NCBI RefSeq assembly: GCF_009208075.1
Contig: NZ_WFKJ01000027.1
Coordinates: 1-40,285, forward strand
Reading direction: 5' to 3'
DNA: 40,285 nucleotides
From: Poseidonibacter ostreae
GTDB lineage: Bacteria; Campylobacterota; Campylobacteria; Campylobacterales; Arcobacteraceae
Shown: positions 1-18,325 of the stretch, in pieces
Numbering within the stretch: position 1 is the stretch's first letter
How the letters are laid out: the number at the start of each line of letters is the position of its first letter
Notes under the pieces: generated by a model
What the model was told of the DNA's origin: nothing
Databases searched by the model: none
What the model saw: only the letters and a program-made list of their open reading frames with translations
Translations under genes and position numbers: made by a program

Positions 1-11
1 TTATATTTTCC

Positions 12-1544
12 TTATTTTTCTTCGTCAACTTCACTATCATCGTGAAGATTAATCTCATGTTTAATTGGTTTCATAGCTGGAAAAAGTAATACATCTCTAA
101 TAGAGTGTTCATTTGTAAGCATCATTACTAATCTATCCATTCCAATACCTTGACCTGCACATGGAGCCATACCATAAGATAAAGCATTTACAAAGTCTTC
201 ATCCATTTCGTGTGCTTCATCATCACCACCAGATTCTTTGGCTTCCATTTGACCTTCAAATCTTTTTAATTGATCAATTGGGTCATTAAGTTCTGAGAAT
301 GCATTTGCTATCTCTTTTCCAGCAATAAATAATTCAAATCTATCAGTTAAATGAGGTTTTTCATCATTTCTTCTAGCTAATGGAGAAATTTCTACTGGAT
401 ATTCTGTAATAAAAGTAGGGTTAATAAGTTTGTCTTCTACATACTCATCAAATAATTCACCTTGAAGTTGTCCTAGGTTCATTTTTTCATTTACATCAAT
501 ATGCGCTGCTTTTAAATATGCAATTATTTTTTCTTTATCTAAAGTTATATCAGCTGGAACTCCACCTATACTTGTTAGAGATTCAATTAATGGAATCTCG
601 CTAAAGTCTGCAAAATCAATCTCTAAATCCCCATAAGGTAATACTGTAGGTAAATCTAAATGTTCAAATAAAAATTCAAAATACTCTTTTGTTAAAATAA
701 TTAAATCTTTATATGTTTTATATGCCCAGTAAAATTCAATTGATGTAAATTCAGGATTATGAGTAGCATCCATACCTTCATTTCTAAAACATCTATTTAT
801 TTCAAATACAGCTTCAAATCCACCAACAATACATCTTTTTAAATATAACTCAGGTGCGATTCTTAAAAATCTATCAACTCCTAAAGCATTGTGATGTGTT
901 GTAAAAGGTTTAGCATTTGCACCTCCTGCAATTGGGTGCATCATTGGAGTTTCTACTTCTAAGAAACCTTTGTTTTCAAAGAATCTTCTAGTTAAAGATA
1001 TAACTCTTGATCTTACATGGAAAGTTTTTCGAACTTCACTATTCATAATTAAATCTAAATATCTTTGTCTATATCTAAGCTCTTTATCTTGAATTCCATG
1101 GTATTTTTCAGGAAGTGGAGAAATTGATTTTGTTAATATTTTTAATCCATCAACATGAAGTGATAATTCACCTTTTCCTGTTATAAATGGATATCCAGAA
1201 ACTTCAATAATATCACCAACTTCTACAGTTTTTTTGAAAGTTTCATTATAAAAGCCAACAGGCAAATTATCTCTACTTACATAAATTTGTAATATCCCTG
1301 ATTCGTCTTCAATCTTTAAAAAAGAAGCTTTTCCCATAAGTCTAAAGAATTTTATTCTTCCTGCAACTGTATAGTTTCTTTTTTCATCTCTTTTTTCTTC
1401 TACTTGGAAAATATCACTATTAACATTTAAAAATTTTCCAATTGTTGTATTTCTTGAGCTTTCATTTGAATAAGGGTTGATTCCTGATTCTCTTAATTTT
1501 TCAGCTTTTTCTATTCTTTGTTGTATATATTTGTTTTCAAACAA
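12..1544 (-). CDS. lysS: Lysyl-tRNA synthetase, class II
   Basis: Charges tRNA-Lys with lysine in the cytoplasm, using ATP. The 510-residue product has the usual length. It shows the N-terminal OB-fold anticodon-binding region, then the class II core. Motif 2 is visible as [15 protein letters not shown], and motif 3 near the C-terminus as [13 protein letters not shown] followed by [11 protein letters not shown]. The C-terminal tail is acidic. It is transcribed from the minus strand, 12 bases downstream of the CvpA-family gene, so the two probably form an operon. On the minus strand an AAGGA lies at 13-9, just past the lysS stop, which suggests that another gene of the same operon starts right outside the window. 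Confidence 0.97.
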
Positions 1545-1556
1545 TATAAGATCCCT

Positions 1557-2351
1557 TTATTTATTTTCTTCAGTTTTATTTACTATGCTTTGTAATTTTT
1601 CTTTTACAGTATTAATTTGCTCTTCAGTAGCATTTGTAGTATTTACTATAGTCTCTTCAACTTTTTTAACTACTTCTTCTTCAACAGATTTTTTTACATC
1701 ATTGATTGTACTTTGAACACCATCTGTAATATCTTTTTTAGTCTCTTCAATTGTTTCTTTTATTTCTTTTACAGGAGTTGTATCTTCTGTTTCTTTAGGT
1801 GTTGTAGCTTCTTTTGCAGTATCTACAACTGTATCAACAGTTTTTTCAATATTTTGAGTAATTGAAGAAGTGTCAAGTTTAATAATATAAGAACCAACGC
1901 TAATTAAATGTGGCATTACAACAGAACCTGCTGTTTTATTATCAATAGCTTTCTTGAAAGATTGAACTTGGTATAAAGCGTATGAAATAACAGAAAATAT
2001 TAAAAATACTTTTGCTGCTCCAAATACGAATCCAAAAATTCTATCAAATAATCCTAACCCACTTGCAGAGAATATTTTACTAACTATTACTCCAAGTACA
2101 TAGACAATAAGCCAAAAACCAATTAGTGCTATTATAAACCCAATTAATTTAATTGTAGTTTGATTCTCTAATGCTAAAAAAGGAGCGATTAAATTACCAA
2201 TTTCTCCTGCTGCTCTAGATGCTACAAAAATTGCACCAATAATTCCAACAATTCCAAAAACTTCTTTTATTAAGCCTCTGAATAATCCTTTTAGTCCTAA
2301 AACTAGAGTAATACCTAGTATTACCATATCAAAAATAGTAAACTCTTGCAT
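1557..2351 (-). CDS. CvpA-family membrane protein with long C-terminal extension
   Basis: The first 160 or so residues match the CvpA family (colicin V production protein). They carry about four hydrophobic segments, an early FDMVILGITLVLGLKGLFRG helix and a glycine-rich second helix (VFGIVGIIGAIFVASRAAGE). CvpA proteins are inner-membrane proteins of poorly defined role, linked to envelope stress and secretion. This one has 264 residues, about 100 more than is usual. The extra C-terminal part is rich in Lys, Glu, Thr and Val with heptad-like spacing and no hydrophobic segment, so it is probably an extended amphipathic or coiled-coil tail. It precedes lysS on the same strand. An AGGAAA Shine-Dalgarno on the minus strand supports the start. 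Confidence 0.85.
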   Translation of the reverse strand: MQEFTIFDMVILGITLVLGLKGLFRGLIKEVFGIVGIIGAIFVASRAAGEIGNLIAPFLALENQTTIKLIGFIIALIGFWLIVYVLGVIVSKIFSASGLGLFDRIFGFVFGAAKVFLIFSVISYALYQVQSFKKAIDNKTAGSVVMPHLISVGSYIIKLDTSSITQNIEKTVDTVVDTAKEATTPKETEDTTPVKEIKETIEETKKDITDGVQSTINDVKKSVEEEVVKKVEETIVNTTNATEEQINTVKEKLQSIVNKTEENK

Positions 2352-2417
2352 AGATTTCCTTTACATAATATGCGCTATTGTATCTAATGTTTTCAAAATT
2401 AAAGTTTAAAAAAACTT

Positions 2418-2449
2418 TTGACTTTAATTTAAACTTTTTTAGATAAAAT
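2418..2449 (+). promoter_or_regulatory. Candidate ispG promoter directly abutting the start codon
   Basis: A TTGACT box at 2418-2423 is followed by an AT-rich stretch and the -10-like TAGATAAAAT at 2440-2449. The ispG ATG begins six bases further on, at 2456, and no GGA-type Shine-Dalgarno precedes it. The spacing suggests that transcription starts at or very near the ATG. The exact -10 hexamer is ambiguous. Confidence 0.45.
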
Positions 2450-2455
2450 CTCTTC

Positions 2456-3517
2456 ATGATAAAAAGATACCCAACAAAACAAATATTCGTAGGAAATGTA
2501 CCAGTTGGTGGCGATGCCCCAATTCCTGTACAGTCAATGTGTTTTACAAAAACAACTGATGTTGAAGCTACTGTTGAACAAATCCGAGCATTACACTTTG
2601 CAGGTGCTGATATTGTAAGACTTGCAGTACCTAATAAAGAGGCGGCATTAGCTTTAAAAGAGATAAAAAAACAAGTAGATTTACCAATTGTTGCAGATAT
2701 TCATTTTCACTATAAACTTGCTTTAATAGCAGCAGAAGTTGTAGATTGTATTAGAATAAATCCAGGAAATATTGGAGATAAAAAAAGAGTACAAGAAGTG
2801 GTAAAAGCTTGTCAAGAAAGAAATCTTCCAATTAGAATTGGAGTAAATTCAGGATCACTAGAAAAACAATTTGAAGATAGATATGGACAAACACCAGAAG
2901 GAATGGTAGCAAGTGCAGACTATAATATAAAATATCTTGAAGATTTAGGTTTTACTGATATAAAAGTATCCCTAAAAGCTAGTGATGTTCAAAGAACAGT
3001 ACAAGCTTATAGAACTTTAAGACCTATGAATAATTATGCTTTTCATCTTGGAGTTACAGAAGCTGGTACTCAGTTTCACTCTACAATTAAATCATCAATT
3101 GCTTTAGGTTCTTTACTTTTAGATGGTATTGGTGATACTTTAAGAGTTTCAATGACAGGTGAATTAGAAAAAGAGATTGAAGTAGGTAAGGCTATTTTAA
3201 AAGATGTAGGAATTACAAAAGAGGGCTTAAATATTATCTCTTGCCCAACTTGTGGAAGAATTGAAGCTGATTTAGTAAGCGCTGTTGCAGAAGTTGAAAA
3301 AAGAACAAAACATATAAAAGCTCCTTTAGATGTGTCTGTTATGGGATGTGTTGTAAATGCAATTGGAGAAGCAAAATCTGCTGATGTTGCAATTGCCTTT
3401 GGAAAAGGTTCAGGACTTGTTATGAAAAAAGGCGAGATTGTTGCAAAACTTTCTGGTGATGCTTTAATTAACAAATTTCTTGAAGAAGTAGAATTTGAAG
3501 CAGAAAAAAGAAAATAA
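2456..3517 (+). CDS. ispG: 4-hydroxy-3-methylbut-2-en-1-yl diphosphate synthase
   Basis: Catalyses the penultimate step of the MEP isoprenoid pathway, the reductive conversion of MEcPP to HMBPP with a [4Fe-4S] cluster. The product has 353 residues, close to E. coli IspG. It has the N-terminal TIM barrel followed by the cluster domain with C263-P-T-C266 and C298; E305 is the usual fourth ligand. The sequence has no insert domain of the plant or chlamydial type. It is transcribed divergently from the cvpA-like gene and converges on the geranylgeranyl-reductase-type gene. No Shine-Dalgarno is visible, so it may be read from a leaderless mRNA. Confidence 0.97.
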
Positions 3518-4754: not shown

Positions 4755-6842
4755 ATGGATAGCGTTTATAGTATAAATATTGAAAGAGCAGTATTAAGTT
4801 CGATACTTTTTAATCCTGAAGAATTAGAAGATGTTTTAGGGGTTTTAAAACCTAAAGATTTTTATCTTCCTGCGCATCAAAAAATATTTGATGTAATGAT
4901 TAAACTTCATGATGATGATATGCCAATTGATGAAGAGTTTATAAGAAAAAGAATAAATGCAAAAGATGTTGATGATTCTATTTTAATAGAAATATTATCA
5001 GCAAATCCAATTACTAATACACTTGCGTATGTAAGAGAAATAAAAGATGGTTCGGTAAAAAGAGAACTTGCAACCTTAGCAACTACTATAAAAAAAGTAG
5101 CACTTGAAGAAGAAGTAAGTGGAAATGAAGCCCTTGATACAGTTCAAGGTGAACTATACAAAATCTCTACAGATTCAGCAACTTCAGAATTAAAAGATAT
5201 GCAAGAAATCACAGGTGACACACTTTCATATATAGAAAGAATGAAAAAACTTGGAAATAAACACCTTATTGGTGAAACAACAGGTTTTGATGCACTTGAT
5301 AAAAAAACAACTGGTTTTAATGAAGGGGATTTAATTATCATTGCTGCACGTCCTGCTATGGGAAAATGTCTTGCTAAAGGAACAAAAGTTCTGATGTTTG
5401 ATGGCTCTTTAAAAGCTGTTGAAGATGTAATAAGTGGTGATAAACTAATGGGTGATGATTCAACTTCTAGAAAAGTATTATCAATTGCAAGAGGAAAAGA
5501 ACAGATGTACTGGGTACGTCAAAATAAAGCAATAGATTACAGGGTAAATGAATCTCATATTCTATCATTAAAAAGAAGTAGAACAGAAGGTTCACATAAA
5601 AATGGAGATATTTTAAATATAAATGTAAAAGAATATCTTGAAAAAAGTGATAAATTTAAAAGTAATTATAAAGGCTATAAAGTAGCTGTAGAGTTTAAAA
5701 ATGAAAATTTATCAGTTTTAAAAAGAGAAGAAGAGTTAAATTCATTTATTGATAAAAATTCAACTACAGAGAAAGACTATATACTTTTTGACCAAAATTT
5801 AGATGAGATAGAAAAAATTAAATTTCTAGCAGATTCTTTAGGCTTTATTACATATTTTGAGAATAAAAAATTATATATATCAAAACTAAAGCAAGAAATA
5901 AATTTAACAGAAATAAAAATCGAAAAAGATATAGAAGATGAATACTATGGCTTTGAAATTGATGGTAATAAACTATTTTTATTAGAAGATATGACAGTAA
6001 CACATAACACAGCACTTGTGTTAAATATGGCTTTAAAAAATGTAGAAGCACAAAAGGGTGTGATTTTCTTCTCCCTTGAAATGCCAGCAGAACAACTAAT
6101 GCTTAGAATGCTAGCTGCAAAGACTTCAATACCTCTACAAAATCTTAGAAAAGGTGATATGAGTGATAATGAATGGAGTCAGCTAAGTGGAGCCTTTGAA
6201 GATTTGAACACAAAAAAATTATTTGTTGATGATGGTGGAAGTATTAATATTAATCAACTAAGAGCAAGAGTTCGAAAACTAGCACAAAATGAAGATAATA
6301 AAATCTCGCTTGTAATCATCGATTACCTTCAACTTATGCAAGGAACAGGTGGAAAAGATAGACACCAAGAAGTATCGGATATCTCAAGAGGTCTTAAAAT
6401 GCTTGCAAGGGAGATGAAAATACCAATCATCGCTCTTTCACAGTTAAATAGGGGAGTTGAAAGTAGACCAGATAAACGACCAATGCTTTCAGATTTAAGA
6501 GAGTCTGGTGCTATTGAGCAAGATGCGGATATTATCATGTTTGTATATAGAGATGATGTATATAAAGAAAGAGATGAAGCAAGAAAAGAAAAAGAAGCAA
6601 AAGATAAAGGTGAAGAGTACAAATCGTCATTTGTAAACAAACCAGTAGAAGAAGCAGAAGTAATAATAGGAAAACAAAGAAATGGACCTATTGGTACAGT
6701 TAAACTTGACTTTCAAAAAGCACTTACACGATTTGTAGATAAAGAAAATGATATGAATTCTTCAACACCTGTAGAAATTATCTTTGAAAATGTAGCTGAT
6801 GTGGAAAGAGAAACTAATATGGATATGCCGGATATCCTCTGA
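4755..6842 (+). CDS. dnaB: Replicative DNA helicase DnaB with an in-frame intein
   Basis: The hexameric helicase that unwinds DNA at the replication fork. The precursor has 695 residues. Removing residues 205-418 leaves 481, the normal DnaB length. The N-terminal primase-interacting domain covers about residues 1-150 and the RecA-like motor the rest. The Walker A sequence RPAMGK (199-204) is broken after the lysine and resumes with T419. Walker B is seen as LVIIDYLQLMQ, and the conserved SQLNRGVESRPDKRP and LRESGAIEQDAD follow. Because the intein splits the P-loop, the helicase can only be active after protein splicing. A GGAG Shine-Dalgarno precedes the ATG. The polysaccharide locus starts 64 bases downstream. 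Confidence 0.97.
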   Translation: MDSVYSINIERAVLSSILFNPEELEDVLGVLKPKDFYLPAHQKIFDVMIKLHDDDMPIDEEFIRKRINAKDVDDSILIEILSANPITNTLAYVREIKDGSVKRELATLATTIKKVALEEEVSGNEALDTVQGELYKISTDSATSELKDMQEITGDTLSYIERMKKLGNKHLIGETTGFDALDKKTTGFNEGDLIIIAARPAMGKCLAKGTKVLMFDGSLKAVEDVISGDKLMGDDSTSRKVLSIARGKEQMYWVRQNKAIDYRVNESHILSLKRSRTEGSHKNGDILNINVKEYLEKSDKFKSNYKGYKVAVEFKNENLSVLKREEELNSFIDKNSTTEKDYILFDQNLDEIEKIKFLADSLGFITYFENKKLYISKLKQEINLTEIKIEKDIEDEYYGFEIDGNKLFLLEDMTVTHNTALVLNMALKNVEAQKGVIFFSLEMPAEQLMLRMLAAKTSIPLQNLRKGDMSDNEWSQLSGAFEDLNTKKLFVDDGGSININQLRARVRKLAQNEDNKISLVIIDYLQLMQGTGGKDRHQEVSDISRGLKMLAREMKIPIIALSQLNRGVESRPDKRPMLSDLRESGAIEQDADIIMFVYRDDVYKERDEARKEKEAKDKGEEYKSSFVNKPVEEAEVIIGKQRNGPIGTVKLDFQKALTRFVDKENDMNSSTPVEIIFENVADVERETNMDMPDIL
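5367..6008 (+). mobile_element. Mini-intein in the DnaB P-loop (214 residues)
   Basis: Encodes residues 205-418 of the DnaB precursor. It begins with Cys (C205, in CLAKGTKVLMFDG, block A) and ends with H417-N418, followed by T419 as the +1 extein nucleophile. Block B is VNESHIL with N265 and H268 in the N-x-x-H arrangement. The C-terminal block reads YYGFEIDGNKLFLLEDMTVT before the final His-Asn. These are the residues needed for standard Cys-type splicing. It has no LAGLIDADG motif and only 214 residues, so it has no recognisable homing endonuclease. FLADSLGF at residues 357-364, followed by YISK, resembles the region after the endonuclease in larger inteins and may be a remnant. Base composition is like that of the flanking dnaB. 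Confidence 0.95.
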
Positions 6843-6860
6843 TTAATAAGCTGTTATTAA
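6843..6860 (+). terminator. Weak hairpin after dnaB
   Basis: Arms TTAATAA (6843-6849) and TTATTAA (6854-6860) flank a GCTG loop and are followed by ATTATTTTTA. The stem is entirely A-T, so termination would be weak; it may only attenuate read-through into the polysaccharide locus. Confidence 0.3.
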
Positions 6861-6871
6861 ATTATTTTTAG

Positions 6872-6877
6872 TATAAT
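6872..6877 (+). promoter_or_regulatory. -10 box for the polysaccharide operon
   Basis: A TATAAT in the 64-base gap between dnaB and the first wbp gene. It would start transcription near 6884 with a leader of about 23 bases carrying AAAGGA at 6896-6901. No convincing -35 box is present. Tight gene spacing downstream suggests that this promoter serves the genes up to about 16094, and possibly to 21997. Confidence 0.5.
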
Positions 6878-6906
6878 TTATTATAAACTATCAATAAAGG
6901 AAAAGA

Positions 6907-8175
6907 TTGAAAAAGATATGTATAATAGGCCTAGGATATGTAGGTCTGCCACTAGCAGCAGCCTTTGCAAAAAAATATACTGTTGTTGGATTTGATATTA
7001 ATGAGCCAAGAGTAGAAGAGCTAAATAATGACTTTGATAGAACTTTAGAATTAAATAAAGAACAATTAGTTGAAGTAAAAGATTCTATTACTTATTCTTG
7101 TAACCTAGATGATATTAAAGATGCAAATATTTATATAGTAACAGTTCCTACTCCTATTGATTCTTCAAATAGACCAGATTTAACTCCTTTAGTAAAATCA
7201 TCTCAAATGATTGGACGTGTACTTAAACAAGATGATATTGTAATTTATGAAAGTACAGTATATCCTGGAGTTACAGAAGAAGTATGTGTACCACAACTAG
7301 AAGCTGCTTCAGGTATGACTTTTAATAAAGACTTCTTCTGTGGATATTCTCCTGAAAGAATTAACCCAGGTGATAAAGAGCATACAGTAACTAAAATTCT
7401 TAAAATTACAGCAGGTTCAAACCCAGAAATTGCTGATGAAGTAGATGAACTGTATAAATCAATTATAACAGCAGGTACTCATAAAGCAAGCTCAATAAAA
7501 GTAGCAGAAGCAGCAAAAGTAATAGAAAATACTCAAAGAGATGTAAATATTGCTCTTGTAAATGAATTAGCTTTAATATTTGATACTATGGGTATTGATA
7601 CAAATGATGTAATAGAAGCAGCAGCAACTAAATGGAACTTTATAAAATTAAAACCAGGATTAGTTGGTGGACATTGTATTGGCGTAGATCCATATTATCT
7701 TACATTTAAAGCAGAAGAACTAGGATATAAACCAAACCTAATTTTAGGTGCTAGACAAATCAATAATGGTATGGGTAAATATATAGCTGAAAAAACTATT
7801 AAAAAAATGATAAAAAATGATAAAAAGATAAAAGACTCAAATATCCTTGTGTTAGGTGTTACTTTTAAAGAAGATTGTCCTGATTTAAGAAATACAAAAG
7901 TAACTGATATTGTAGATGAATTACAAGAATATGGAGCAAATGTAGATATATACGATCCATGGGTTGACTTAGAAGAAACAAAAACTCATTTCAATCATGA
8001 ATTAATGGAAAGAAATCCTTTTGAATCTGATAAAAAATATGATTCAATAATTGTTGCAGTTGCACATGAACAATTTAAAAAATTAACAGAAGATGATTAT
8101 AAATCAATATCAACACAAAAAGAAATTTTAATAGATATTAAGGGTATTATTAAAAACCCTACATGGAGATTATAA
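6907..8175 (+). CDS. wbpA: UDP-N-acetyl-hexosamine 6-dehydrogenase (WbpA type)
   Basis: Oxidises C6 of a UDP-N-acetyl-hexosamine to the uronic acid with NAD+, in the cytoplasm. The 422-residue product has the N-terminal Rossmann motif GLGYVGLPLA, the STVYPG motif, and the catalytic cysteine in the GGHCIGVDPYY loop. The C-terminal UDP-binding domain contains LGVTFKEDCPDLRN. Related enzymes include WbpA, WbpO and TviB. The following wbpB, wbpD and wbpE homologues favour the WbpA role, on UDP-GlcNAc. It starts at TTG, supported by AAAGGA six bases upstream and by the N-terminal MKKICIIGLGYVG aligning with the family. It ends two bases before the next start. Confidence 0.9.
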   Translation: MKKICIIGLGYVGLPLAAAFAKKYTVVGFDINEPRVEELNNDFDRTLELNKEQLVEVKDSITYSCNLDDIKDANIYIVTVPTPIDSSNRPDLTPLVKSSQMIGRVLKQDDIVIYESTVYPGVTEEVCVPQLEAASGMTFNKDFFCGYSPERINPGDKEHTVTKILKITAGSNPEIADEVDELYKSIITAGTHKASSIKVAEAAKVIENTQRDVNIALVNELALIFDTMGIDTNDVIEAAATKWNFIKLKPGLVGGHCIGVDPYYLTFKAEELGYKPNLILGARQINNGMGKYIAEKTIKKMIKNDKKIKDSNILVLGVTFKEDCPDLRNTKVTDIVDELQEYGANVDIYDPWVDLEETKTHFNHELMERNPFESDKKYDSIIVAVAHEQFKKLTEDDYKSISTQKEILIDIKGIIKNPTWRL

Positions 8176-8176
8176 T

Positions 8177-9142
8177 ATGCCAAACATAAAAAGATTCGCT
8201 CTAATAGGTGCATCAGGATATATAGCACCAAGACATATGCAAGCAATAACTGAAACAGGAAATGAATTAGTAGCTGCATTAGATCCATATGATGGAATAG
8301 GAATAATGGATTCTCACTTTCCACAAGCATCTTTTTTTACAGAGTTTGAAAGATTTGATAGGTTTGTAGATAAATACCATAGAGAAAATGAAAAAAGAAT
8401 AGATTATATGGCAATTACAACTCCAAATTATTTGCATGATGCACATATTAGATTTGCATTAAAAAGTGGAGCTGATGCTATTTGTGAAAAACCATTAGTT
8501 TTAAATCCACATAATATTGATCAACTAAAAATTATTGAGCAAGAAACAGGTAAAAGAGTAAATAATATTTTACAATTAAGACTTCATCCTTCTATTATTG
8601 CATTAAAAGAAAAAGTTCAAAAAGAATTAATAGAAAATCCAAATAAAGTATATGATATTGATTTAACATATTTAACTTCAAGAGGTAAATGGTACTTTGT
8701 TTCTTGGAAAGGTGATGAAGCTAAATCTGGTGGAATTGCATCTAATATTGGAGTTCATTTTTATGACATGCTTTGCTGGATATTTGGTGAAGTTGAAGAG
8801 AATATTGTACATTTAAAAACTCCTGATGCAAATGCTGGTGGCTTTAAATTAAAACATGCAAATGTTAGATGGTTCTTATCTGTAAACTATGATTATATTC
8901 CTCAAGATGTAAGAGATGCTGGACAAACAACATTTAGATCTATTACTGTTGATGGAGATGAAATAGAGTTCTCAGGTGGATTTAAAGACCTGCATACAAG
9001 ATCTTATGAAGAAATCTTAGCTGGTAACGGATTTGGACTAGATGAAGCATATGGATCAATTAGAACAGTTGCAGCAATTAGAAACCAAGATGCTATTGGA
9101 TTAAAAGGTGAATACCACCCATTTTGTAAAAAGATAAAATAA
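8177..9142 (+). CDS. wbpB: UDP-GlcNAcA 3-dehydrogenase (WbpB/WlbA-like, Gfo/Idh/MocA family)
   Basis: Expected to oxidise C3 of UDP-GlcNAcA, giving the 3-keto sugar that WbpE then transaminates. The 321-residue product has the family N-terminus FALIGASGYIAPRHMQAI, the typical ALDPYDGIGIMDSHFP segment, and the catalytic CEKPLV motif. It is followed by GGIASNIGVHFYD in the substrate domain. The order wbpA-wbpB-wbpD-wbpE is the same as in Pseudomonas aeruginosa B-band O-antigen and related Bordetella loci. Its TAA overlaps the next ATG by one base, indicating translational coupling. Confidence 0.9.
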   Translation: MPNIKRFALIGASGYIAPRHMQAITETGNELVAALDPYDGIGIMDSHFPQASFFTEFERFDRFVDKYHRENEKRIDYMAITTPNYLHDAHIRFALKSGADAICEKPLVLNPHNIDQLKIIEQETGKRVNNILQLRLHPSIIALKEKVQKELIENPNKVYDIDLTYLTSRGKWYFVSWKGDEAKSGGIASNIGVHFYDMLCWIFGEVEENIVHLKTPDANAGGFKLKHANVRWFLSVNYDYIPQDVRDAGQTTFRSITVDGDEIEFSGGFKDLHTRSYEEILAGNGFGLDEAYGSIRTVAAIRNQDAIGLKGEYHPFCKKIK

Positions 9143-9723
9143 TGGCAAAGTTTTTTTATCATGAATCTTCTTTCATAGATGATAATGTAAATATTGGTGA
9201 TGATACTAAAATTTGGCATTTTTCCCATATCCTAAGTGGAACAACTATTGGTTCAAATTGCTCATTTGGACAAAACTGTGTAGTAGGTCCTAAAGTAAAT
9301 ATTGGAAATGGTGTAAAGGTTCAAAATAATATTTCAATCTATGAAGGTGTAGTTGTAGAAGATGATGTTTTTTTGGGACCTTCTATGGTTTTTACAAATG
9401 TAATAAATCCAAGATCTTTTATAGTTCGTAAAGAAGAGTTTAAAATTACTCTTCTTAAAAAAGGTTGTTCAATTGGTGCTAATGCAACTGTAGTATGTGG
9501 TAATACTATTGGGAAATATGCACTTGTAGGAGCTGGAACTGTAATTAATAAAGATGTAAAAGATTTTGCTCTAATGGTTGGAGTTCCTTGTAAACAAATT
9601 GGATGGGTTTCAATTGCTGGAAATAGATTAGTTTTTAATGATGAAAATATTGCAATAGATTCATTTGATAATTCTAAATATAAATTAGAAAATGATGTAG
9701 TAACTTTGATTGAGGAAAAATAA
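9142..9723 (+). CDS. wbpD: UDP-GlcNAc3NA 3-N-acetyltransferase (WbpD/WlbB-like)
   Basis: A left-handed beta-helix acyltransferase of 193 residues, with hexapeptide repeats such as VNIGDD, TTIGSN and VNIGNG running to about residue 150. The family signature GPSMVFTNVINPRS lies in the middle. It is expected to transfer an acetyl group from acetyl-CoA to the 3-amino group made by the next enzyme. The C-terminal VGVPCKQIGWVS is typical of WbpD/WlbB proteins. It overlaps wbpB by one base and is separated from wbpE by three. Similar folds use other acyl donors, so acetyl is inferred from the pathway. Confidence 0.88.
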   Translation: MAKFFYHESSFIDDNVNIGDDTKIWHFSHILSGTTIGSNCSFGQNCVVGPKVNIGNGVKVQNNISIYEGVVVEDDVFLGPSMVFTNVINPRSFIVRKEEFKITLLKKGCSIGANATVVCGNTIGKYALVGAGTVINKDVKDFALMVGVPCKQIGWVSIAGNRLVFNDENIAIDSFDNSKYKLENDVVTLIEEK

Positions 9724-9726
9724 AAT

Positions 9727-10872
9727 ATGAAAATAGATTTTGCAAACTTACAATACCAATATCAATTATATAAAACAGAAATTGATGAAGCGATTAGTGC
9801 TGTATTAAATAAATCAAATTATATAATGGGTGAAGAAGTAGCTACTTTAGAAAATTCACTTCAAGAATTTACTAAAGCAAAATATGCAATTACATGTAGT
9901 AATGGTACTGATGCTTTACTACTTGCTATGATGGCTTTGGATATTAAACCAGGTGATGAAATAATCACTACTCCTTTTACATTTATAGCAACAGCTGAAA
10001 CGATTGCATTTCTAGGAGCAACTCCAGTATTTGTAGATATAGATGAAAAGACTTATAATATTGATCCATCTTTAATTGAAGAAAAAATTACAGATAAAAC
10101 AAAAGCTATTATGCCAGTTAGTTTATATGGACAACCATCTGATATGGATGCAATTGCTTCTATTGCAGATAAACATAACTTAAAAGTAATTATAGATGGA
10201 GCTCAAAGCTTTGGATCAACTTTTAATGGACTAACAGATTCAAATTTAGGTGATATATCAACTACTTCATTCTTCCCTGCAAAACCATTAGGTTGCTTTG
10301 GCGATGGTGGAGCAGTTTTTACTAATAATGAAGAATTAGCATTAAAGATGAAATCATTAAGAGTTCATGGTCAATCAAAAAGATACCATCATAAATATAT
10401 AGGAATGGGTGGAAGACTCGATACTTTACAAGCAGCAGTATTAAATGTAAAAATAAAACACTATCCTAAAGATTTATCTTTAAGACAAGAAGTGGCTTCT
10501 AAATACACAAAAGCACTAGAAAATAAAACAAATTTAATACTTCCCTTTGTAGCTCCTTCTGCAACATCAGCATGGGCACAATATTCTGTTAGAGTTAAAA
10601 ATAGAGATGAAGTTCAAGCAAAATTAAAAGAGCAAGAAATTCCAACTGCTGTTCATTATCCTATGCCTTTGCATTTGCAAGAATGCTTTGAATACTTAGG
10701 ATATAAAAAAGGTGATTTTCCAGTATCTGAGATAGTTTCAGGTGAGATTATGTCTTTGCCTATGAATCCTTATATTACTAATGAAGAAATAGATTATATT
10801 TCTAAAAATGTAATAAGTACGGATAATATAAAATTAAAAAAAGGTAAAAGATGTCAGATGAAAATAAAATAG
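9727..10872 (+). CDS. wbpE: UDP-2-acetamido-3-keto sugar aminotransferase (WbpE/WlbC-like)
   Basis: A PLP-dependent DegT/DnrJ/EryC1 sugar aminotransferase of 381 residues. It puts a 3-amino group on the keto sugar made by the WbpB homologue, normally with glutamate as donor. Visible family features are SNGTDALLLAMMAL (phosphate contact), DGAQSFGS, and the PLP lysine in SFFPAKPLGCFGDGGA. YHHKYIGMGGRLDTLQAA is a close WbpE-like segment. Its last 22 bases overlap the next gene, a clear sign of coupled translation. Confidence 0.92.
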   Translation: MKIDFANLQYQYQLYKTEIDEAISAVLNKSNYIMGEEVATLENSLQEFTKAKYAITCSNGTDALLLAMMALDIKPGDEIITTPFTFIATAETIAFLGATPVFVDIDEKTYNIDPSLIEEKITDKTKAIMPVSLYGQPSDMDAIASIADKHNLKVIIDGAQSFGSTFNGLTDSNLGDISTTSFFPAKPLGCFGDGGAVFTNNEELALKMKSLRVHGQSKRYHHKYIGMGGRLDTLQAAVLNVKIKHYPKDLSLRQEVASKYTKALENKTNLILPFVAPSATSAWAQYSVRVKNRDEVQAKLKEQEIPTAVHYPMPLHLQECFEYLGYKKGDFPVSEIVSGEIMSLPMNPYITNEEIDYISKNVISTDNIKLKKGKRCQMKIK

Positions 10873-11711
10873 ATTTAATAGAACTTTTTAGTAAAATATA
10901 TCAGAAAAAGAAATATATATTAAGTGTTGTTATTTGTTTAACTTTATTAGCAACTATTTATACATACATGAAAACACCTATCTATGAAGCAAGAGCTTTT
11001 GTTAAAGCGGGAAACTATTATGATCTTATAGAATCAGATGTAATAAATAAAAAAACTAAAGAAGTTGAATACTTTGAAAGTGTAAGATCTAAATTTACTG
11101 TAAGTAGTGAAGTGATTGTTGAAATGATTAAAAATAGGTTTCAAGGGAAAAACATAAATAATGCTATAATTAGTTATGTGTGGAATTATCCTAAAAAAGA
11201 CGGCTATTTTTCTATAAAATCTCATTCTTCTTCAAAAGAGATAGCTGCCGAACACATTAATTATGTATTATCAGAAATTTCTAAAGAAGTTAATAGTAAA
11301 TCTAATTTATTATTAGAATATAAACAATCAGAAAAAGAAAAAGTACAAAATGAGTTGGTAATTATAAATTCTTTCTTACTAGTATCTCAAAATAGAATAA
11401 AAGATCTTCAGAGAGATAATAGAGCAATTCTAAAAGATAAACTTTTTGATGCGCAGTATAAAGAGTATTCTCTAAAAGTAAAAAAAGAAGAGTTAATCTT
11501 GAGGTCTAAAAGATTGGAATCAGAATTAATAAGATTAAGTGATAGAAGTTTAGAACTAGTTGATGAAATAGTAGTAAAGGATAGTCCAATAAAACCAAAT
11601 AAAAGAAAAATTATAATCATGGCATTTATAGGGTCTTTATTTTTGGCATTGATTACATTACCTTTTTTATATAGATATGAAGAATTAAAATCTAAAAGAT
11701 ATAATGATTAA
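10851..11711 (+). CDS. wzz: Wzz-type polysaccharide chain-length determinant
   Basis: An inner-membrane protein of 286 residues with the Wzz layout. The short cytoplasmic N-terminus (IDLIELFSKIYQKKKYIL) leads into a first membrane helix at about residues 24-41. A large helical periplasmic domain with coiled-coil character follows (about 150-235), and a proline-containing segment (SPIKPNKRK) leads into a second helix at about 252-272. These proteins set the number of repeat units added by Wzy. There is no kinase domain, so it is not the BY-kinase type. It overlaps wbpE by 22 bases and the flippase gene by 8. The sequence is poorly conserved, so the call depends on topology and context. Confidence 0.8.
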   Translation: MSDENKIDLIELFSKIYQKKKYILSVVICLTLLATIYTYMKTPIYEARAFVKAGNYYDLIESDVINKKTKEVEYFESVRSKFTVSSEVIVEMIKNRFQGKNINNAIISYVWNYPKKDGYFSIKSHSSSKEIAAEHINYVLSEISKEVNSKSNLLLEYKQSEKEKVQNELVIINSFLLVSQNRIKDLQRDNRAILKDKLFDAQYKEYSLKVKKEELILRSKRLESELIRLSDRSLELVDEIVVKDSPIKPNKRKIIIMAFIGSLFLALITLPFLYRYEELKSKRYND

Positions 11712-12981
11712 AAAATTAAATAATTGTTCTAGTTTTACTAAAAATGTTTTAACATTGATGACCGGAACAACAGTAGCTCAAGCAATACCTATTGCTATAA
11801 GTCCAATATTAACTAGGATATATACCCCTTCTGATTTTGGTCTTTTAGCTTTATTTATTGCAATAACTGCGATATTTGGAAATATCGCAAATGCTAAATA
11901 TGAATTAGCAATTATGTTACCTAAAAAAGATGAAGATGCTATAAATATTTTAGCTTTTAGTATGATCATTGCCATATGTATCTCTTTATTCTTATTAATT
12001 ATAGTATTCTTATTTAGTGGATATATTACAGAGCTATTAGGAAATAAAGATATAGAATTTTGGTTATATTTTATTCCCATAACTGTTTTATTTTTGGGCT
12101 TATTTAATTCTTTAAATTATTACAATATAAGGAAAAAATATTTTAAAGATATTGCAAAAGCTGTAATAATTAAATCTATTGTAATGGCTTCCTTCCAGCT
12201 TACGATTGGTTTTCTTGTTCAAGGAGTTGTAGGGCTAATATCGGGTGAAGTATTTTCGAAGTTATTTGCAAATCTTAAATTAGCTAGAAATATATTAAAA
12301 GATAAAGTAATTATTTCTAAAATCTCAAAGCCAAAAATGATTGCATTAGCTAAAAAATATAAAGGCTTTTTTTATTACAATACACCAGCATCATTGGTAG
12401 ATAGTGCTACCTTGCAGATGCCATTTATTTTTATTATAAAAATAGCAAATGAAGCTATAAGTGGATATTTTTTCTTAGCTTCAAAAATTGTAATGTTGCC
12501 AAGTGCATTGATTGGTAGTTCAATAGCTCAAGTCTTTTTTCAACAAACTACAGAACATATACATAATAAAGAATTAGTAGCTCCATTAGTATTTCAAACA
12601 ATGAAAAAGCTAGTTATAATAGCTTTACCTATTACAGTTTTAATAATATTGATTGGACCTCATATATTTGGAATAATTTTTGGTAAAAACTGGGGAGTTG
12701 TTGGTACTATAGCTCAGTATGTTGCATTGATCTTTTTTATAAGGTTTGTTGTTTCATCTGTTAGTCAGATATTATCAATTAAAGAGTATTTAAAAAGAGG
12801 ATCAATATGGAAATATATGTATTTTTTTACTAGTGTACAAATGTATACGTATGCAATATATGGAAATATGGATTTTTATGATTTTATGATTTTATTTGTT
12901 ATTCATGAATATGTTTTATATTTAATATATTTGTATTTAATATTAAAATCAGTAAGAGATATCGATAGTAGGATGAATTAA
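11704..12981 (+). CDS. wzx: Wzx-type polysaccharide flippase
   Basis: A polytopic membrane protein of 425 residues with about 12 hydrophobic segments. Its N-terminus, with TGTTVAQAIPIAISPILTRI then YTPSDFGLLALF, is characteristic of the MOP/RfbX exporter superfamily. It would move undecaprenyl-PP-linked repeat units across the inner membrane. It lies between the Wzz gene and asnB, and its TAA overlaps the asnB ATG by one base. It could also be a flippase for another lipid-linked glycan, but the locus argues for O-antigen or capsule. Confidence 0.88.
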   Translation: MIKKLNNCSSFTKNVLTLMTGTTVAQAIPIAISPILTRIYTPSDFGLLALFIAITAIFGNIANAKYELAIMLPKKDEDAINILAFSMIIAICISLFLLIIVFLFSGYITELLGNKDIEFWLYFIPITVLFLGLFNSLNYYNIRKKYFKDIAKAVIIKSIVMASFQLTIGFLVQGVVGLISGEVFSKLFANLKLARNILKDKVIISKISKPKMIALAKKYKGFFYYNTPASLVDSATLQMPFIFIIKIANEAISGYFFLASKIVMLPSALIGSSIAQVFFQQTTEHIHNKELVAPLVFQTMKKLVIIALPITVLIILIGPHIFGIIFGKNWGVVGTIAQYVALIFFIRFVVSSVSQILSIKEYLKRGSIWKYMYFFTSVQMYTYAIYGNMDFYDFMILFVIHEYVLYLIYLYLILKSVRDIDSRMN

Positions 12982-14789
12982 TGTGTGGTATAAGTGGAAT
13001 TATAAATACTAATAATAAAACAGTTGAAAAAATAGAAATTGAAAAAATAAATAGGCTAATATCTCATAGAGGTCCGGATGATGAGGGTTATTTTTATAGA
13101 GATAATTTTGCATTTGGTCATAGACGATTATCTATTTTAGATTTATCAAGTGACGGTCATCAACCGATGAATTATAAGGATGAAAAGTACACAATTACTT
13201 ATAATGGGGAAATATATAACTATATAGAATTAAAAAACGAATTATCAGAATTGGGTTATAATTTTAATTCAAATACTGACACTGAGGTGATTTTAGCTTC
13301 ATATGATAAATGGGGCGATGATTGTGTTTCAAAGTTTAATGGGATGTGGGCATTCTCGATTTATGATAGAGAAAAAGAGATACTTTTTTGTAGTAGAGAT
13401 AGATTTGGTATAAAACCATTTTATTACGCTGAAGTAGAAAATAAATTTGTTTTTGGTTCAGAGATTAAACAATTATTGCCTTTTTATGAGAGTAATTATG
13501 TAAATAAAACTATTTTGATGGATTATCTTATATTGGGATATGAAGCCCATACAAATGAAACATTTTTTAAGAATATATTTCAGTTAGAACAGGGGCATAT
13601 ATTAAAATACAATTTAAAAAATCATAGCTATGTTATTAATAGATTTTATGATATCAATGAATCTTCTTTAAATAGTGAAGAAGATGAATCAATTGAATCT
13701 TACAAGTCAGCACTTGAAAGAAGTATAAATCTAAGGCTTCGAAGTGATGTTAAGGTAGGAACTTGCCTTAGTGGAGGGCTAGATAGTTCATCAATAGCTT
13801 CTTTAGCTGCTAAACAATATAAAGATGACAGTGGGCAAAAATTTACTGCTATTCATGCTAAATCTTCTCAAAAGTCAAATGATGAAAGTGAATATGCAAA
13901 AATAGTAAGTGAACATTGTGATTTGGATTTAAATATTGTTGAACCTACAGAAGAGGATTTTATAAAACATATTGATGAAGTTATTTATACCCAAGAAGAA
14001 CCATTTGGAAGCCCTTCTATTTTTATGCAATATTTTGTAATGAAAAAAGCACGTGAAATTGGTTGTACTGTTATGCTTGATGGACAAGGTGGGGATGAGA
14101 CATTATTAGGTTATGAAAGATATTATTCTGCTTATTTAATTAGTTTAGGTTTTTGGAAATCTTTACAGTTTATACTTAATTCATCTAAAAACTCAAAACT
14201 ATCTATAAAACAATTAATAATGTATTTTATATATTTTACTAATAGTAAAATAAGATTGGGTCGTTTAAAGAAAAAAAATAGTTTTATCTCTTCAAAATAT
14301 TTCGATATGGTAAGTAAAGAAATTGTAGAAGAAAATGCTAAAAACTACTTAAAGATATTTAATCTTCAAAGAATGGAAATATTTAAGACACAGATGCCAC
14401 ATTTATTAAAATATGAAGATAGAAACTCGATGAAACATTCAATTGAGGCTAGATTACCATTTATTGATTATAATGTACTTGAGACAGCATTAAATATTGA
14501 TAATAACTTTAAAATTAAACAAGGGTGGACTAAATATATTTTAAGAAAAACTATTGAAAAGCTTCTACCTGATAATGTTGTATGGAGAAAAAATAAATGT
14601 GGTTTTGAGGCTCCCTCTTCTTTGTGGCTAAAAAGTATAGAAGCAGATATTGAAAAATCAATTTTTAATTCAAAAATAATAAAAGAGATAACAACTTCTA
14701 TTGATATAAAAAAACTCGATAATAAGACCCGTTGGAGATTATTTAATATATCAAAATGGGAAGCTCTTTATAATGTTAAAATTGATTAA
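12981..14789 (+). CDS. asnB: AsnB-type glutamine-dependent amidotransferase
   Basis: Contains the class II glutaminase domain with nucleophile Cys2 (MCGISGI), HRGPDDEG, the DLSSDGHQPM segment and the YNGEIYNY motif. The synthetase domain has the PP-loop SGGLDSSS at residue 264. The length of 602 matches asparagine synthetase B. In sugar loci, proteins of this kind (such as WbpS in P. aeruginosa) are thought to amidate the carboxyl of a uronic acid. The preceding WbpA homologue makes such an acid, so this role is favoured over free asparagine synthesis. That is an inference from position. It is coupled to the flippase gene by a one-base overlap. Confidence 0.9.
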   Translation: MCGISGIINTNNKTVEKIEIEKINRLISHRGPDDEGYFYRDNFAFGHRRLSILDLSSDGHQPMNYKDEKYTITYNGEIYNYIELKNELSELGYNFNSNTDTEVILASYDKWGDDCVSKFNGMWAFSIYDREKEILFCSRDRFGIKPFYYAEVENKFVFGSEIKQLLPFYESNYVNKTILMDYLILGYEAHTNETFFKNIFQLEQGHILKYNLKNHSYVINRFYDINESSLNSEEDESIESYKSALERSINLRLRSDVKVGTCLSGGLDSSSIASLAAKQYKDDSGQKFTAIHAKSSQKSNDESEYAKIVSEHCDLDLNIVEPTEEDFIKHIDEVIYTQEEPFGSPSIFMQYFVMKKAREIGCTVMLDGQGGDETLLGYERYYSAYLISLGFWKSLQFILNSSKNSKLSIKQLIMYFIYFTNSKIRLGRLKKKNSFISSKYFDMVSKEIVEENAKNYLKIFNLQRMEIFKTQMPHLLKYEDRNSMKHSIEARLPFIDYNVLETALNIDNNFKIKQGWTKYILRKTIEKLLPDNVVWRKNKCGFEAPSSLWLKSIEADIEKSIFNSKIIKEITTSIDIKKLDNKTRWRLFNISKWEALYNVKID

Positions 14790-14801
14790 AATGACAATAA
14801 T

Positions 14802-16094
14802 ATGAATACGTTAAAAATTGAAAAAATATTTATTGTAGAGTTTTTATTTATTATTTGTATAAAATTAATAATAGAATATTTTTATCTTGAAATTCTTAGT
14901 ACTACTTATCTATATGCAGGCTTTGTTCTTGATTTTGATATGACTAAATATATTATAGGATGGATTATCTATTTATTTGGATATTCTTTTTTATATTATA
15001 AACGAAAGTTACATATATTTGAGATATATCTATTTTTATATTTTTTATATTTTTTACCTAATGTAGTATATTTTAGTTTAAGTAATCAACCTGTTTTAGA
15101 TTTTGTATCTTTAGTTTTTCCTTTCTTATTTTTAATTTTTATGACAACAAATAAAGAGATTATTCCTTTATCTAGGATGAAATATGGTAAATTAGTTGTT
15201 TTATCTTTATCATTAGGGATTATTACACTAGTAATTTGGCATTTTTATAAAAGTACAGGTGGAGCATATGTTTTAAATTTTTTAGATGTATATCCTTTTA
15301 GGGCAAAATATGATGATGTAAGTAATGCTGGTATATATGGATATTTAAATAGTTGGGCAATGAAGATATTTTCTGTATTTTTATTAGCATGGGCTTTATT
15401 AAGAGCTAAAATATCTTTAATAATAATCGCTGGAATTTCGATAATTATGTTATTTATATTTTCTGGACATAAAAGTGCTTTACAAGGGATTGTTCTTGTA
15501 TCATTTTTTTATTTTTTATTTGGATTTAAAGATAGAAGAGTACTTATAATAGGGGGATTCTTTTTTATGTTTTTAATAGCTTCAGTTTTGACAATTTTTG
15601 CAGATCAGATTATGATAGGATCAGTTCTAATAAGAAGATTATTATTTGTTCCTGCTCAATTGAATTTTTCTTATATTGAATATTTTAGTTTAAATGAACA
15701 TATATATTGGGCAAATAGTGTATTAAAGCTTTTTATGGATTATCCATATGAAGTAACTCCAGCAAAATTGATAGGAACGTTTCTAGGGGAACCAGATATG
15801 TCTGCAAATACAGGATTTATAGCTTCTGGATTTATGCATGGGAGCTATTTAGGAATATTGATTTATATGTTAATTGCAGTTATTATATTTAATATAATTA
15901 ATCTATTAGCAAAAAATATTGATAAATATATTGTATTATCTATTATTATTTTACCTATAAATACAATGTTTATATCATCTGATCTGTTAACTACTCTATT
16001 AACTCATGGATTAATAATTGCAATTATAGTATTATGGTTATACGATAGTGAAGAGTACAGGTTATCTATTAAAAAATTATCTATAAAAATTTAG
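14802..16094 (+). CDS. Candidate O-antigen polymerase (Wzy-like) membrane protein
   Basis: A very hydrophobic protein of 430 residues with about 10-12 membrane segments and a larger soluble loop near residues 280-350 (LNEHIYWANSVLKLFMDYPYE and following). No signature motif is recognisable. Polymerases of this class diverge too far for motif recognition by eye. It is called Wzy-like because the locus has Wzx and Wzz but no other polymerase candidate, and because topology and size fit. The gene is extremely AT-rich, even for this window. An alternative is an unrelated membrane protein or a second transporter. Confidence 0.65.
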   Translation: MNTLKIEKIFIVEFLFIICIKLIIEYFYLEILSTTYLYAGFVLDFDMTKYIIGWIIYLFGYSFLYYKRKLHIFEIYLFLYFLYFLPNVVYFSLSNQPVLDFVSLVFPFLFLIFMTTNKEIIPLSRMKYGKLVVLSLSLGIITLVIWHFYKSTGGAYVLNFLDVYPFRAKYDDVSNAGIYGYLNSWAMKIFSVFLLAWALLRAKISLIIIAGISIIMLFIFSGHKSALQGIVLVSFFYFLFGFKDRRVLIIGGFFFMFLIASVLTIFADQIMIGSVLIRRLLFVPAQLNFSYIEYFSLNEHIYWANSVLKLFMDYPYEVTPAKLIGTFLGEPDMSANTGFIASGFMHGSYLGILIYMLIAVIIFNIINLLAKNIDKYIVLSIIILPINTMFISSDLLTTLLTHGLIIAIIVLWLYDSEEYRLSIKKLSIKI

Positions 16095-16142
16095 TATTAA
16101 TTTATTTAAGAGAGATTATAAGTTTATAATTAAGGAAAAGAA

Positions 16143-17255
16143 GTGAGTATTAAAATAGCACATTTAACATCTGCCCATACAAGATATGATATAAGAATAT
16201 TTATAAAAATGTGTGTTTCGTTGGCAAAAGACAAAAGATTTGATGTTAATCTAATTTCAGCTGATGGTTTAGGAAAAGATGTAAAAGAAAATGTAACAAT
16301 ACATGATGCTGGTGCAAAAAGTGGAAGTCGTATATCTCGTATGACTAAAACAGTTGATAATGTTTATAAAAAAGCATTGGAAATTGATTGTGATGTGTAT
16401 CATTTACATGATCCAGAACTTATACCAGTAGGACTAAAATTAAAGAAATTAGGTAAAAAAGTAATTTTTGATGCCCATGAAGATTTACCTAAGCAATTAA
16501 AAAGTAAGCCTTATTTAAATAAAACACTAAGATTTATATTATCAAACTTATTTTCTTTATATGAAAAATATTCTTGTAGGAAATTTGATTATATTGTAAC
16601 AGCTACACCAAATATTAGAGACAAATTTTTAAATATAAATAAAAATAGTATAGATATTAATAACTTCCCAATTTTAGGTGAATTGAGTATCTCCAATGAA
16701 TCTTATACTAAAAAAAATGAAGTGTGTTATGTGGGTGGAATCTCTGAAATAAGAGGAATAAAAGAAGTTATTAATGCATTGGAATATTTAGATGGAATAA
16801 AACTAAATCTTGTAGGAAAGTTTAATAATAAGACTTTAGAAGAAGAGGTTAAAACCTATCCTGGATGGAAAAAAGTTAATCATTTAGGATTCCTTGAAAG
16901 AGATGAAGTAGCGGATGTAATGGGTCGTTCAAAAGCAGGAATTGTTACTTTTCATCCTTTACCAAATCATGTTGATGCCCAACCAAATAAGATGTTCGAA
17001 TACATGAGTGCGAAACTACCAATAATAACTTCAAATTTTCCACTTTGGAGAGAGATTGTAGATGGTAATAGTTGTGGAACTTGTGTCGATCCTTTAGACT
17101 CTAAACAGATAGCTCAGGCTATTAAAGAGATAGTAGATAATGAATTAAAAGCAGATGAATTGGCAAAAAATGGTGAGAAAGCAGTATTAAGTAAATATAA
17201 TTGGGATATAGAAGAACAAAAATTATATAAGATATATGAGGATATTATAAAATGA
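16143..17255 (+). CDS. Family 4 glycosyltransferase (GT-B fold)
   Basis: A 370-residue cytoplasmic or membrane-associated glycosyltransferase. The N-terminal domain has HLHDPELIPVGLKL and VIFDAHEDLPKQL, and the C-terminal domain has the nucleotide-sugar region ending in KMFEYMSAKLPIITSNFP with the conserved glutamate. This subgroup is common in loci making ManNAc3NAcA-containing glycans, next to a WbpI-like epimerase as here, so transfer of that sugar is a plausible inference. It starts at GTG with AAGGA at 16132-16136. Its stop overlaps the epimerase start by four bases. Confidence 0.85.
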   Translation: MSIKIAHLTSAHTRYDIRIFIKMCVSLAKDKRFDVNLISADGLGKDVKENVTIHDAGAKSGSRISRMTKTVDNVYKKALEIDCDVYHLHDPELIPVGLKLKKLGKKVIFDAHEDLPKQLKSKPYLNKTLRFILSNLFSLYEKYSCRKFDYIVTATPNIRDKFLNINKNSIDINNFPILGELSISNESYTKKNEVCYVGGISEIRGIKEVINALEYLDGIKLNLVGKFNNKTLEEEVKTYPGWKKVNHLGFLERDEVADVMGRSKAGIVTFHPLPNHVDAQPNKMFEYMSAKLPIITSNFPLWREIVDGNSCGTCVDPLDSKQIAQAIKEIVDNELKADELAKNGEKAVLSKYNWDIEEQKLYKIYEDIIK

Positions 17256-18325
17256 TAAAAATTTTAACAATACTAGGTGCAAGACCACAGTTTATAAAAG
17301 CAGGATCAGTGAGTCGTGAGATAGCAAAACATAAAAATATAGAAGAGATTATAGTCCATACAGGACAACACTACGATGCAAATATGAGTGATATATTTTT
17401 TGAAGAGATGCAAATACCAAAACCAAACTACTTTTTAGGAATAGGTGGAAAATCTCATGGTGCTATGACTGGACAAATGATAGAAAAGATAGAAGAAGTT
17501 GCTTTGAAAGAAAAACCAGATTGGGTAATGGTATATGGCGATACTAATTCTACCCTTGCCGGAGCAATAGTAGCTTCAAAACTACATATAAAAATTGCAC
17601 ATATTGAAGCAGGTCTTAGAAGTTTTAATATGAAAATGCCAGAGGAAGTAAATAGAATACTTACTGATAGAGTTAGTCAAATATTATTTTGTCCTACTGA
17701 TGCAGCAGTTGAAAATTTACAGAATGAAGGTTATGAGAATCTTGATTGTAAAATAGTAAAATCAGGTGATGTTATGCAAGATGGTGCAATATTTTATAAA
17801 AAACTTGCAGTTAAACCATCATATGAAATAAAAGATGATTTTGTCTTATGTACTATACATAGGGCTGAAAATACTGATGATGAAATAAGATTAAAAAGTA
17901 TATTTGAATCACTAAATGAAATAGCAAGAGAGAAACAAGTTATCTTACCACTTCATCCTAGAACAAAAAAGATTTTAGAGAATTTGAAATTAAATATTCA
18001 GAATTTGACTATAATAGATCCTATTGGGTATTTACAAATGGTATGGCTAATAGATAATTGTAGTTTGGTAATGACAGATAGTGGAGGACTACAAAAAGAA
18101 GCATATTTCTTTGGAAAACAATGTATCACCCTAAGGGATGAGACAGAGTGGGTTGAACTAATAGAATGTGAAGCTAATGTTTTAGTAGGTGCAAATGGAA
18201 CAAAAATATTAGAAGCATATAAAAACAATAAAAAATCAAATACTAGTAATTATCAATCACTGAATCTATACGGTGGTGGAGAAGCTAGTAAATATATTAT
18301 TAAAGAGTTATTAAATGATAGATAA
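17252..18325 (+). CDS. wbpI: UDP-GlcNAc3NAcA 2-epimerase (WbpI-like; UDP-GlcNAc 2-epimerase family)
   Basis: A non-hydrolysing UDP-sugar 2-epimerase of 357 residues. It has GARPQFIKAG at the N-terminus, HTGQHYD, YGDTNSTLAGA, HIEAGLRSF, the PEEVNRILTD segment, HPRTKK, and TDSGGLQKEA near the C-terminus. The YFLGIGGKSHGAMTGQM stretch resembles WbpI rather than WecB. With WbpA, B, D and E upstream, the product would be UDP-ManNAc3NAcA. WecB activity (UDP-ManNAc) is the alternative. It overlaps the upstream glycosyltransferase by 4 bases and the downstream deacetylase by 11. Confidence 0.88.
   Translation: MIKILTILGARPQFIKAGSVSREIAKHKNIEEIIVHTGQHYDANMSDIFFEEMQIPKPNYFLGIGGKSHGAMTGQMIEKIEEVALKEKPDWVMVYGDTNSTLAGAIVASKLHIKIAHIEAGLRSFNMKMPEEVNRILTDRVSQILFCPTDAAVENLQNEGYENLDCKIVKSGDVMQDGAIFYKKLAVKPSYEIKDDFVLCTIHRAENTDDEIRLKSIFESLNEIAREKQVILPLHPRTKKILENLKLNIQNLTIIDPIGYLQMVWLIDNCSLVMTDSGGLQKEAYFFGKQCITLRDETEWVELIECEANVLVGANGTKILEAYKNNKKSNTSNYQSLNLYGGGEASKYIIKELLNDR

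Follow-up and report, generated by a model that had tools for sequence, protein, structure and literature searches.

The replicative helicase gene dnaB of Poseidonibacter ostreae, located in a window of 40,285 nucleotides (the whole stretch of DNA that was analysed), is interrupted in its P-loop by what is in all probability a splicing-competent class 1 intein, descended from a full-length homing intein whose endonuclease has been lost. It clearly exemplifies a familiar type of genetic parasite caught late in its life cycle, and does not amount to a new kind of system. The features of the gene are given below.

4755–6842, + strand: dnaB, replicative helicase precursor, 695 aa (NF006306 (NCBIfam), 684 bits; TIGR00665, 461 bits)
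4755–5366, + strand: N-extein, 204 aa, C-terminal end AARPAMGK (Walker A lysine)
5367–6008, + strand: mini-intein, 214 aa, from Cys1 to His213-Asn214 (PF05203, 85 bits; Hint fold model)
5367–5717, + strand: N-terminal splicing part, intein residues 1–117, with Cys1 and the block B His64 in NESH (alignment with full-length relatives)
5718–5876, + strand: homing endonuclease remnant, second LAGLIDADG half, intein residues 118–170 (alignment, profile match, dN/dS)
5733–5762, + strand: decayed second LAGLIDADG motif ELNSFIDKNS, with Asn at the catalytic Asp position (alignment)
5877–6008, + strand: C-terminal splicing part, intein residues 171–214, last residues VTHN (alignment, model)
6009–6839, + strand: C-extein, 277 aa, first residue Thr(+1), the Walker A threonine

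A mini-intein splits the Walker A motif of DnaB

The dnaB frame starts with ATG and runs without interruption over all 695 aa. As the original prediction had stated, 214 in-frame residues with Cys first and His-Asn last separate the Walker A lysine from the threonine. The insert corresponds to precursor residues 205–418 (642 nt), begins with CLAKGT, ends with VTHN and is flanked by AARPAMGK and TALVLNMA. The normal size expected for DnaB without the insert was likewise recovered, the 204 and 277 residues outside it adding up to 481 aa. When uninterrupted dnaB loci (L058–L087) were compared with the window, the matches to its two halves abutted exactly at the junction residue in 30 of 30 cases.

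In Pfam, the insert matched PF05203 (Hom_end_hint, 85 bits, E 9.8e-24) over residues 1–213 of 214. Its nearest solved structures by sequence are fungal Prp8 inteins (6mx6, E 7.8e-15) and yeast PI-SceI, the VMA intein (1dfa, E 4.5e-11). An AlphaFold2 model built on 46 aligned sequences (pLDDT 83; ten-residue means of 81–97 through residue 110, but below 50 at residues 114–136) has a Hint fold closest to the Prp8 intein 6mx6 (Z 22.7, rmsd 1.4 over 140 residues), with PI-SceI at Z about 21; these best relatives by both sequence and fold reside in other host proteins, in eukaryotes. Judged by the model, the fold match to the mycobacterial DnaB comparison structure 6bs8 is lower (Z 16.6). Cys as the first residue, Asn214 as the last, Thr at +1, the Hint fold and the exactly joined empty alleles of relatives identify the insert as an intein, and the Pfam match, the modelled fold and the empty alleles bear out the proposal of a mini-intein in the DnaB P-loop.

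Two features of the surroundings were noted in passing. dnaB is directly followed by an extended cluster (6907–23850) whose genes, assigned by reading, are of sugar-nucleotide, glycosyltransferase and flippase-like types; the first of its genes was not found in the ~3 kb behind dnaB in the congeners G001 and G002. At 24449–24974 a Phd/YefM-type antitoxin gene adjoins a ParE-type toxin gene.

Predicted splicing pathway

Cys1, the block B His and the terminal His-Asn are common to 102 of 103 aligned inteins, the His position being unread in the remaining row. Three positions before the block B His, where Thr is usual, all 103 inteins including the window's have Asn. Cys1 of the intein, C205 of the precursor, is the sole Cys among its 695 residues, and the G001 precursor, which carries a mini-intein of the same length, likewise has one Cys. 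According to PMC7664689, class 1 inteins are those that have a Cys1 or Ser1 nucleophile and lack a WCT motif with the block F Cys, and class 3 inteins those with no N-terminal Cys or Ser but an internal Cys in a WCT motif. Because Cys1 is present and the precursor has no other Cys, class 3 as so defined is excluded, membership in the mycobacterial DnaB-b type was rejected, and the window's intein is predicted to belong to class 1. The mycobacterial inteins of the DnaB-b site, DnaBi1 of Mycobacterium smegmatis among them, resemble the window's in occupying the P-loop of DnaB, having a P-loop hydroxyl residue at +1 and lacking an endonuclease (PMC6195587, PMC5050341). They differ from it in belonging to class 3, their catalytic Cys being internal.

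Splicing of the precursor would begin with an attack of Cys1 on the Lys-Cys bond, by class 1 chemistry as in other inteins, after which the N-extein would pass to Thr+1. Cyclisation of Asn214, assisted by His213, would then leave the exteins to be joined into a DnaB of 481 residues with its ATP-binding loop restored. The Walker A motif is interrupted in the precursor and complete only in the spliced form, and we infer from the sequence that the precursor does undergo protein splicing.

Loss of the homing endonuclease

A search of 150 related genomes returned 18, the own genome included, with a match to the insert. In 14 of them the match is a dnaB intein with exactly the same junction, although in one case the residue expected to be Lys is unread. 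Eleven of the 14 are 339–342 aa long and carry LGLWLGDG- and LAGLLDSDG-type motifs, one (G149) has 291 aa, and those of the window and G001 have 214 aa. While a full-length relative matched Hom_end (46 bits) and LAGLIDADG_3 (45 bits), neither was found in the G001 insert by profile search, nor was PF05204 or PF14528 in the window's insert by Pfam search, as befits a mini-intein. Compared with the full-length form, the window's allele has two deletions, one of about 90 residues that includes the first motif and another of about 30 further on; between them residues 118 to about 170 are kept, and there RLELLAGLLDSDGHYD has become REEELNSFIDKNSTTEKD. A family endonuclease profile made from 98 full-length domains matched residues 118–180 of the window's intein with 24.4 bits and the G001 intein with 21.7 bits, the best of 200 shuffled controls reaching 7.6 bits. 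The original prediction that the insert lacks a LAGLIDADG motif is thus right in that none is intact and no working endonuclease is predicted, but the insert is not endonuclease-free, since half of the domain remains at residues 118–170.

Both catalytic Asp are kept in 98 of the 103 aligned inteins, and neither is present in those of the window, G001 and G149 or in the minis of viral contigs L179 and L192. In a model of the full-length Aliarcobacter vitoriensis intein (L092; pLDDT 83), helices occupy both motifs (119–128 and 210–224). With the first motif deleted and no Asp left at the second catalytic position, the window's intein, judged from its residues, should no longer home. A separate decay was observed in the 291-aa dnaB intein of G149 (L055), with LGGG at the first motif, LIDGNG at the second and a deletion between them.

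Full-length, decayed and empty alleles in one genus

Comparison of dnaB across relatives revealed both occupied and empty alleles, also within the genus. Among its ten genomes, the window's (G000) and G001 carry the mini-intein, G002 carries a full-length intein, and G003–G007 and G009 are uninterrupted; no dnaB was found in G008. G003, which has no dnaB intein, carries an intein (Intein_splicing, LAGLIDADG_3) in the zinc-finger region of DnaG primase (L227, ORF 1–2697, minus strand).

A tree built from the trpB region alone (4264 columns) gave ((G001,G004),(G006,(G000,G005))) and (G002,(G003,G007)), with the G001–G004 branch not strongly supported (91/94). Occupied and empty species are mixed in it, and the two genomes with the mini, G000 and G001, do not form a sister pair. 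Between the window and G001, dS was 0.635 (0.45–0.894) in the intein, 0.457 and 0.544 in the exteins, and 0.378–0.452 in lysS, cvpA, ispG and trpB (gene names by reading). Because intein dS is no lower than in the five genes compared (0.378–0.544), the two minis appear to date back as far as the species themselves, and the estimates do not support a recent passage of the mini from one of these genomes to the other. Nor was a local recombination tract seen at the insertion site: difference counts in 150-base windows along dnaB had no dip of the kind that allele replacement would leave, which counts against such replacement. The intein appears to be inherited with dnaB and to be replaceable by empty alleles, and the empty alleles of G004–G006 suggest either that an intein unable to home was cleanly lost or that alleles were exchanged early.

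Instead of decaying in place, the mini-intein may have come ready-made, on a dnaB allele passed from one early lineage of the genus to another. We consider this possible but the less likely course. Empty species separate the two carriers in the trpB tree, and the intein tree places the mini pair apart from the congeneric full-length allele (weak support), both of which would fit such a transfer; the similar divergence of intein and exteins speaks against it, and ancestral presence followed by losses would explain the carrier pattern too.

Selection on the splicing domain and on the remnant

Between the window and G001, dN/dS was 0.060 (95% 0.027–0.12) in the Hint part, 0.068 and 0.033 in the exteins, and 0.195 (95% 0.065–0.454) in the endonuclease remnant, the last being estimated from a small sample, 53 codons of one species pair. 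Within the remnant, neutrality lay within the range for residues 118–143 (0.276, 0.04–1.333) and was excluded for residues 144–170 (0.129, 0.003–0.518). Relative to the full-length allele of G002, the remnant showed dN 0.78 and dS 0.57, with the alignment of this changed stretch less sure than the rest, compared with a dN of 0.11 in the N-terminal Hint part. By these substitution estimates, the remnant has diverged strongly and is at present constrained. On a tentative reading, which we hold to be rather less likely than not, the fast change set in once catalysis was lost and the constraint came later, because the half-endonuclease is not a mere fossil and was recruited as a structural or regulatory part needed by the splicing domain.

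Probable dependence of replication on splicing

The draft genome (156 contigs) yielded no other intact DnaB, although a gene may have been missed in it. The only other DnaB-type gene is an interrupted plasmid-type copy. It lies on a plasmid-like contig (C123; L007, 4746–8039) that also has a ParA-type gene, and is broken just behind Walker A by an IS21-type element (ORFs 5427–7224) with matches to IstB_IS21 (270 bits) and rve (63 bits) and a repeat of 5 bases at its ends. Of the two weaker DnaB_C matches in the genome, one is a RadA-like protein and the other, named by reading, a large ORF of helicase-like type. Given that the splice site is inside Walker A and that no other intact DnaB was found, we infer that replication should depend on splicing, which would account for the strong purifying selection on the Hint part.

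A second DnaB serving as a backup that admits the intein was also considered. In the first 37 genomes of the family, a second DnaB-type gene (>170 bits) occurred in 5/5 carriers and 2/29 uninterrupted genomes (Fisher 7.5e-5), both the pattern and the 170-bit cut-off having been picked after looking at these genomes. In 54 further genomes it occurred in 1/4 carriers and 7/46 uninterrupted genomes (Fisher 0.51), and pooling gave 6/9 and 9/75 (Fisher 0.00075), a value driven by the first set and uncorrected for kinship. Since the association was not replicated in the further set, with its four carriers only, we do not put the backup explanation forward.

The original prediction had suggested that the insert might act as a switch, for example through the redox state of C205. 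On such a reading, conditional splicing would gate replication under stress. According to PMC6195587, splicing of DnaBi1, the P-loop DnaB intein of Mycobacterium smegmatis, is inhibited by oxidants through a disulfide between its catalytic and a second cysteine. That precedent, the presence of Cys1 and the persistence of the mini under purifying selection without homing lend the idea some appeal. Yet the precursor has no cysteine besides Cys1, which makes the intramolecular disulfide of the mycobacterial switch impossible here; a switch of the DnaBi1 type was rejected and the redox proposal is not supported as it was worded. The G001 precursor also has a single Cys, DnaBi1 belongs to class 3, to which the window's intein cannot belong, the need to splice alone predicts purifying selection, and six congeners have an uninterrupted dnaB. 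Mixed disulfides or sulfenylation of C205 are possible, but regulation by conditional splicing is, on balance, improbable.

It is more doubtful still that the mini-intein remains mobile through an endonuclease acting in trans. Such an enzyme could come from an allele like that of the congener G002, which is full-length with both catalytic Asp present, but the own genome has no match to Hom_end (PF05204) or LAGLIDADG_3 (PF14528) and no other Hom_end_hint match with these profiles, and intein dS, being equal to or above that of the other genes compared, does not point to a recent spread from G000 to G001 or the reverse. That the window's dnaB is inactive and another helicase replicates the chromosome is hardly credible, because the second DnaB-type gene on the plasmid-like contig is itself interrupted by the IS21-type element while the intein-bearing gene has an open frame and exteins of low dN/dS.

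Distribution and transfer between phyla

The original prediction called an intein at this site in an Arcobacter-like genome, without endonuclease, notable. The insert proved to be no rarity of one such genome but a decayed member of a large family: the intein occurs in 9 of 91 searched genomes of the family Arcobacteraceae, in at least three phyla and in viral contigs. Of the other family genomes, 75 have an uninterrupted dnaB above the model's cut-off and 7 have no full-length match, among them G055, whose fragment is uninterrupted across the site. DnaB P-loop inteins of the same intein family were found in Campylobacterota, Bacteroidota (Hymenobacter, Saprospiraceae and others), Gammaproteobacteria (Methylobacter, Thiomargarita) and viral contigs. 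In the best 80 of 197 relatives from a scan of named genomes (L088–L167), the junction is GK|C...HN|T in 79 and GX|C...HN|T with X unread in the last, and the inteins are 336 aa or longer, members of the family usually having about 342 residues and an endonuclease with two LAGLIDADG motifs; as the ranking used a full-length query, minis are under-sampled in this set. Six of the 80 loci seem to duplicate contigs of the 150-genome set and were dropped before trees and counts. These inteins share the junction of the window's, and the Hint parts from Arcobacteraceae are 62–93% identical to the cellular relatives compared; they differ from it in length and, in those aligned, in having both catalytic Asp, where the 214-aa form has a predicted dead endonuclease.

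Hint identity between Arcobacteraceae and Bacteroidota has a median of 74.5%, compared with 35.3% for DnaB (132 pairs), whereas within Arcobacteraceae both Hint and DnaB reach 83% (55 pairs). The Hint part is thus not simply slow-evolving, which argues that the intein has moved between phyla. In a quick intein tree with many open forks (87 rows, 149 columns), the Arcobacteraceae inteins form one group (SH-aLRT 90), inside which the two minis pair (99); the tree and the identities used 12 of 35 Bacteroidota rows, with a few viral duplicates dropped.

Matches to the insert were found in 237 of 50,697 phage records, many annotated as helicase or terminase and none covering more than 80% of the query in one place, and in 6 of 72,556 plasmid records. 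Phage terminase and helicase inteins match the same family but occupy other host proteins as well as phage DnaB, and are mostly full-length in those read. Viral contigs carry the family in DnaB-like and other proteins, including two short minis of 143 and 138 aa. At L174, L176, L177, L185–L187, L189 and L191–L193, all on viral contigs, the host protein does not match the window's DnaB; the junction there is often exactly GK|T/S or just in front of GK, which gives the impression that the family passes from one P-loop to another without regard to homology. Related inteins were also seen beside Walker A in phage-type terminase large subunits (by reading) of G110 (L050) and G122 (L053), with the arrangement GHG|C...N|(T/S)GK, that of L053 ending in Arg-Asn and not His-Asn. 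In G078 the match is, by reading, a Hint-like protein unconnected with DnaB, and in G097 it is weak and partial.

Relation to described inteins and significance

P-loop DnaB inteins, mini-inteins arising from endonuclease loss, and inteins shared by phage terminases and host DnaB have all been published (PMC6195587, PMC5050341, PMC8966425 and PMC1654191), and the series from full-length through mini to empty in one genus fits the homing cycle as described in these papers. PMC4853749 reports a DnaB intein in Thiomargarita that has an endonuclease or a LAGLIDADG-like domain, and PMC6390638 reports GyrB and DnaE inteins. A limited literature search returned no description of the DnaB P-loop intein family in Campylobacterota.

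Full-length, decayed and empty alleles of one intein thus occur in one genus, in a gene that replication should need. The late steps of the homing cycle, namely endonuclease loss, persistence and intein loss, can be measured here in a bacterium, and the matched alleles allow one to ask whether endonuclease remains help splicing. If recruitment of the remnant is true, the 'mutualism' of endonuclease and Hint domain would have been caught in a natural allele series within a single genus.
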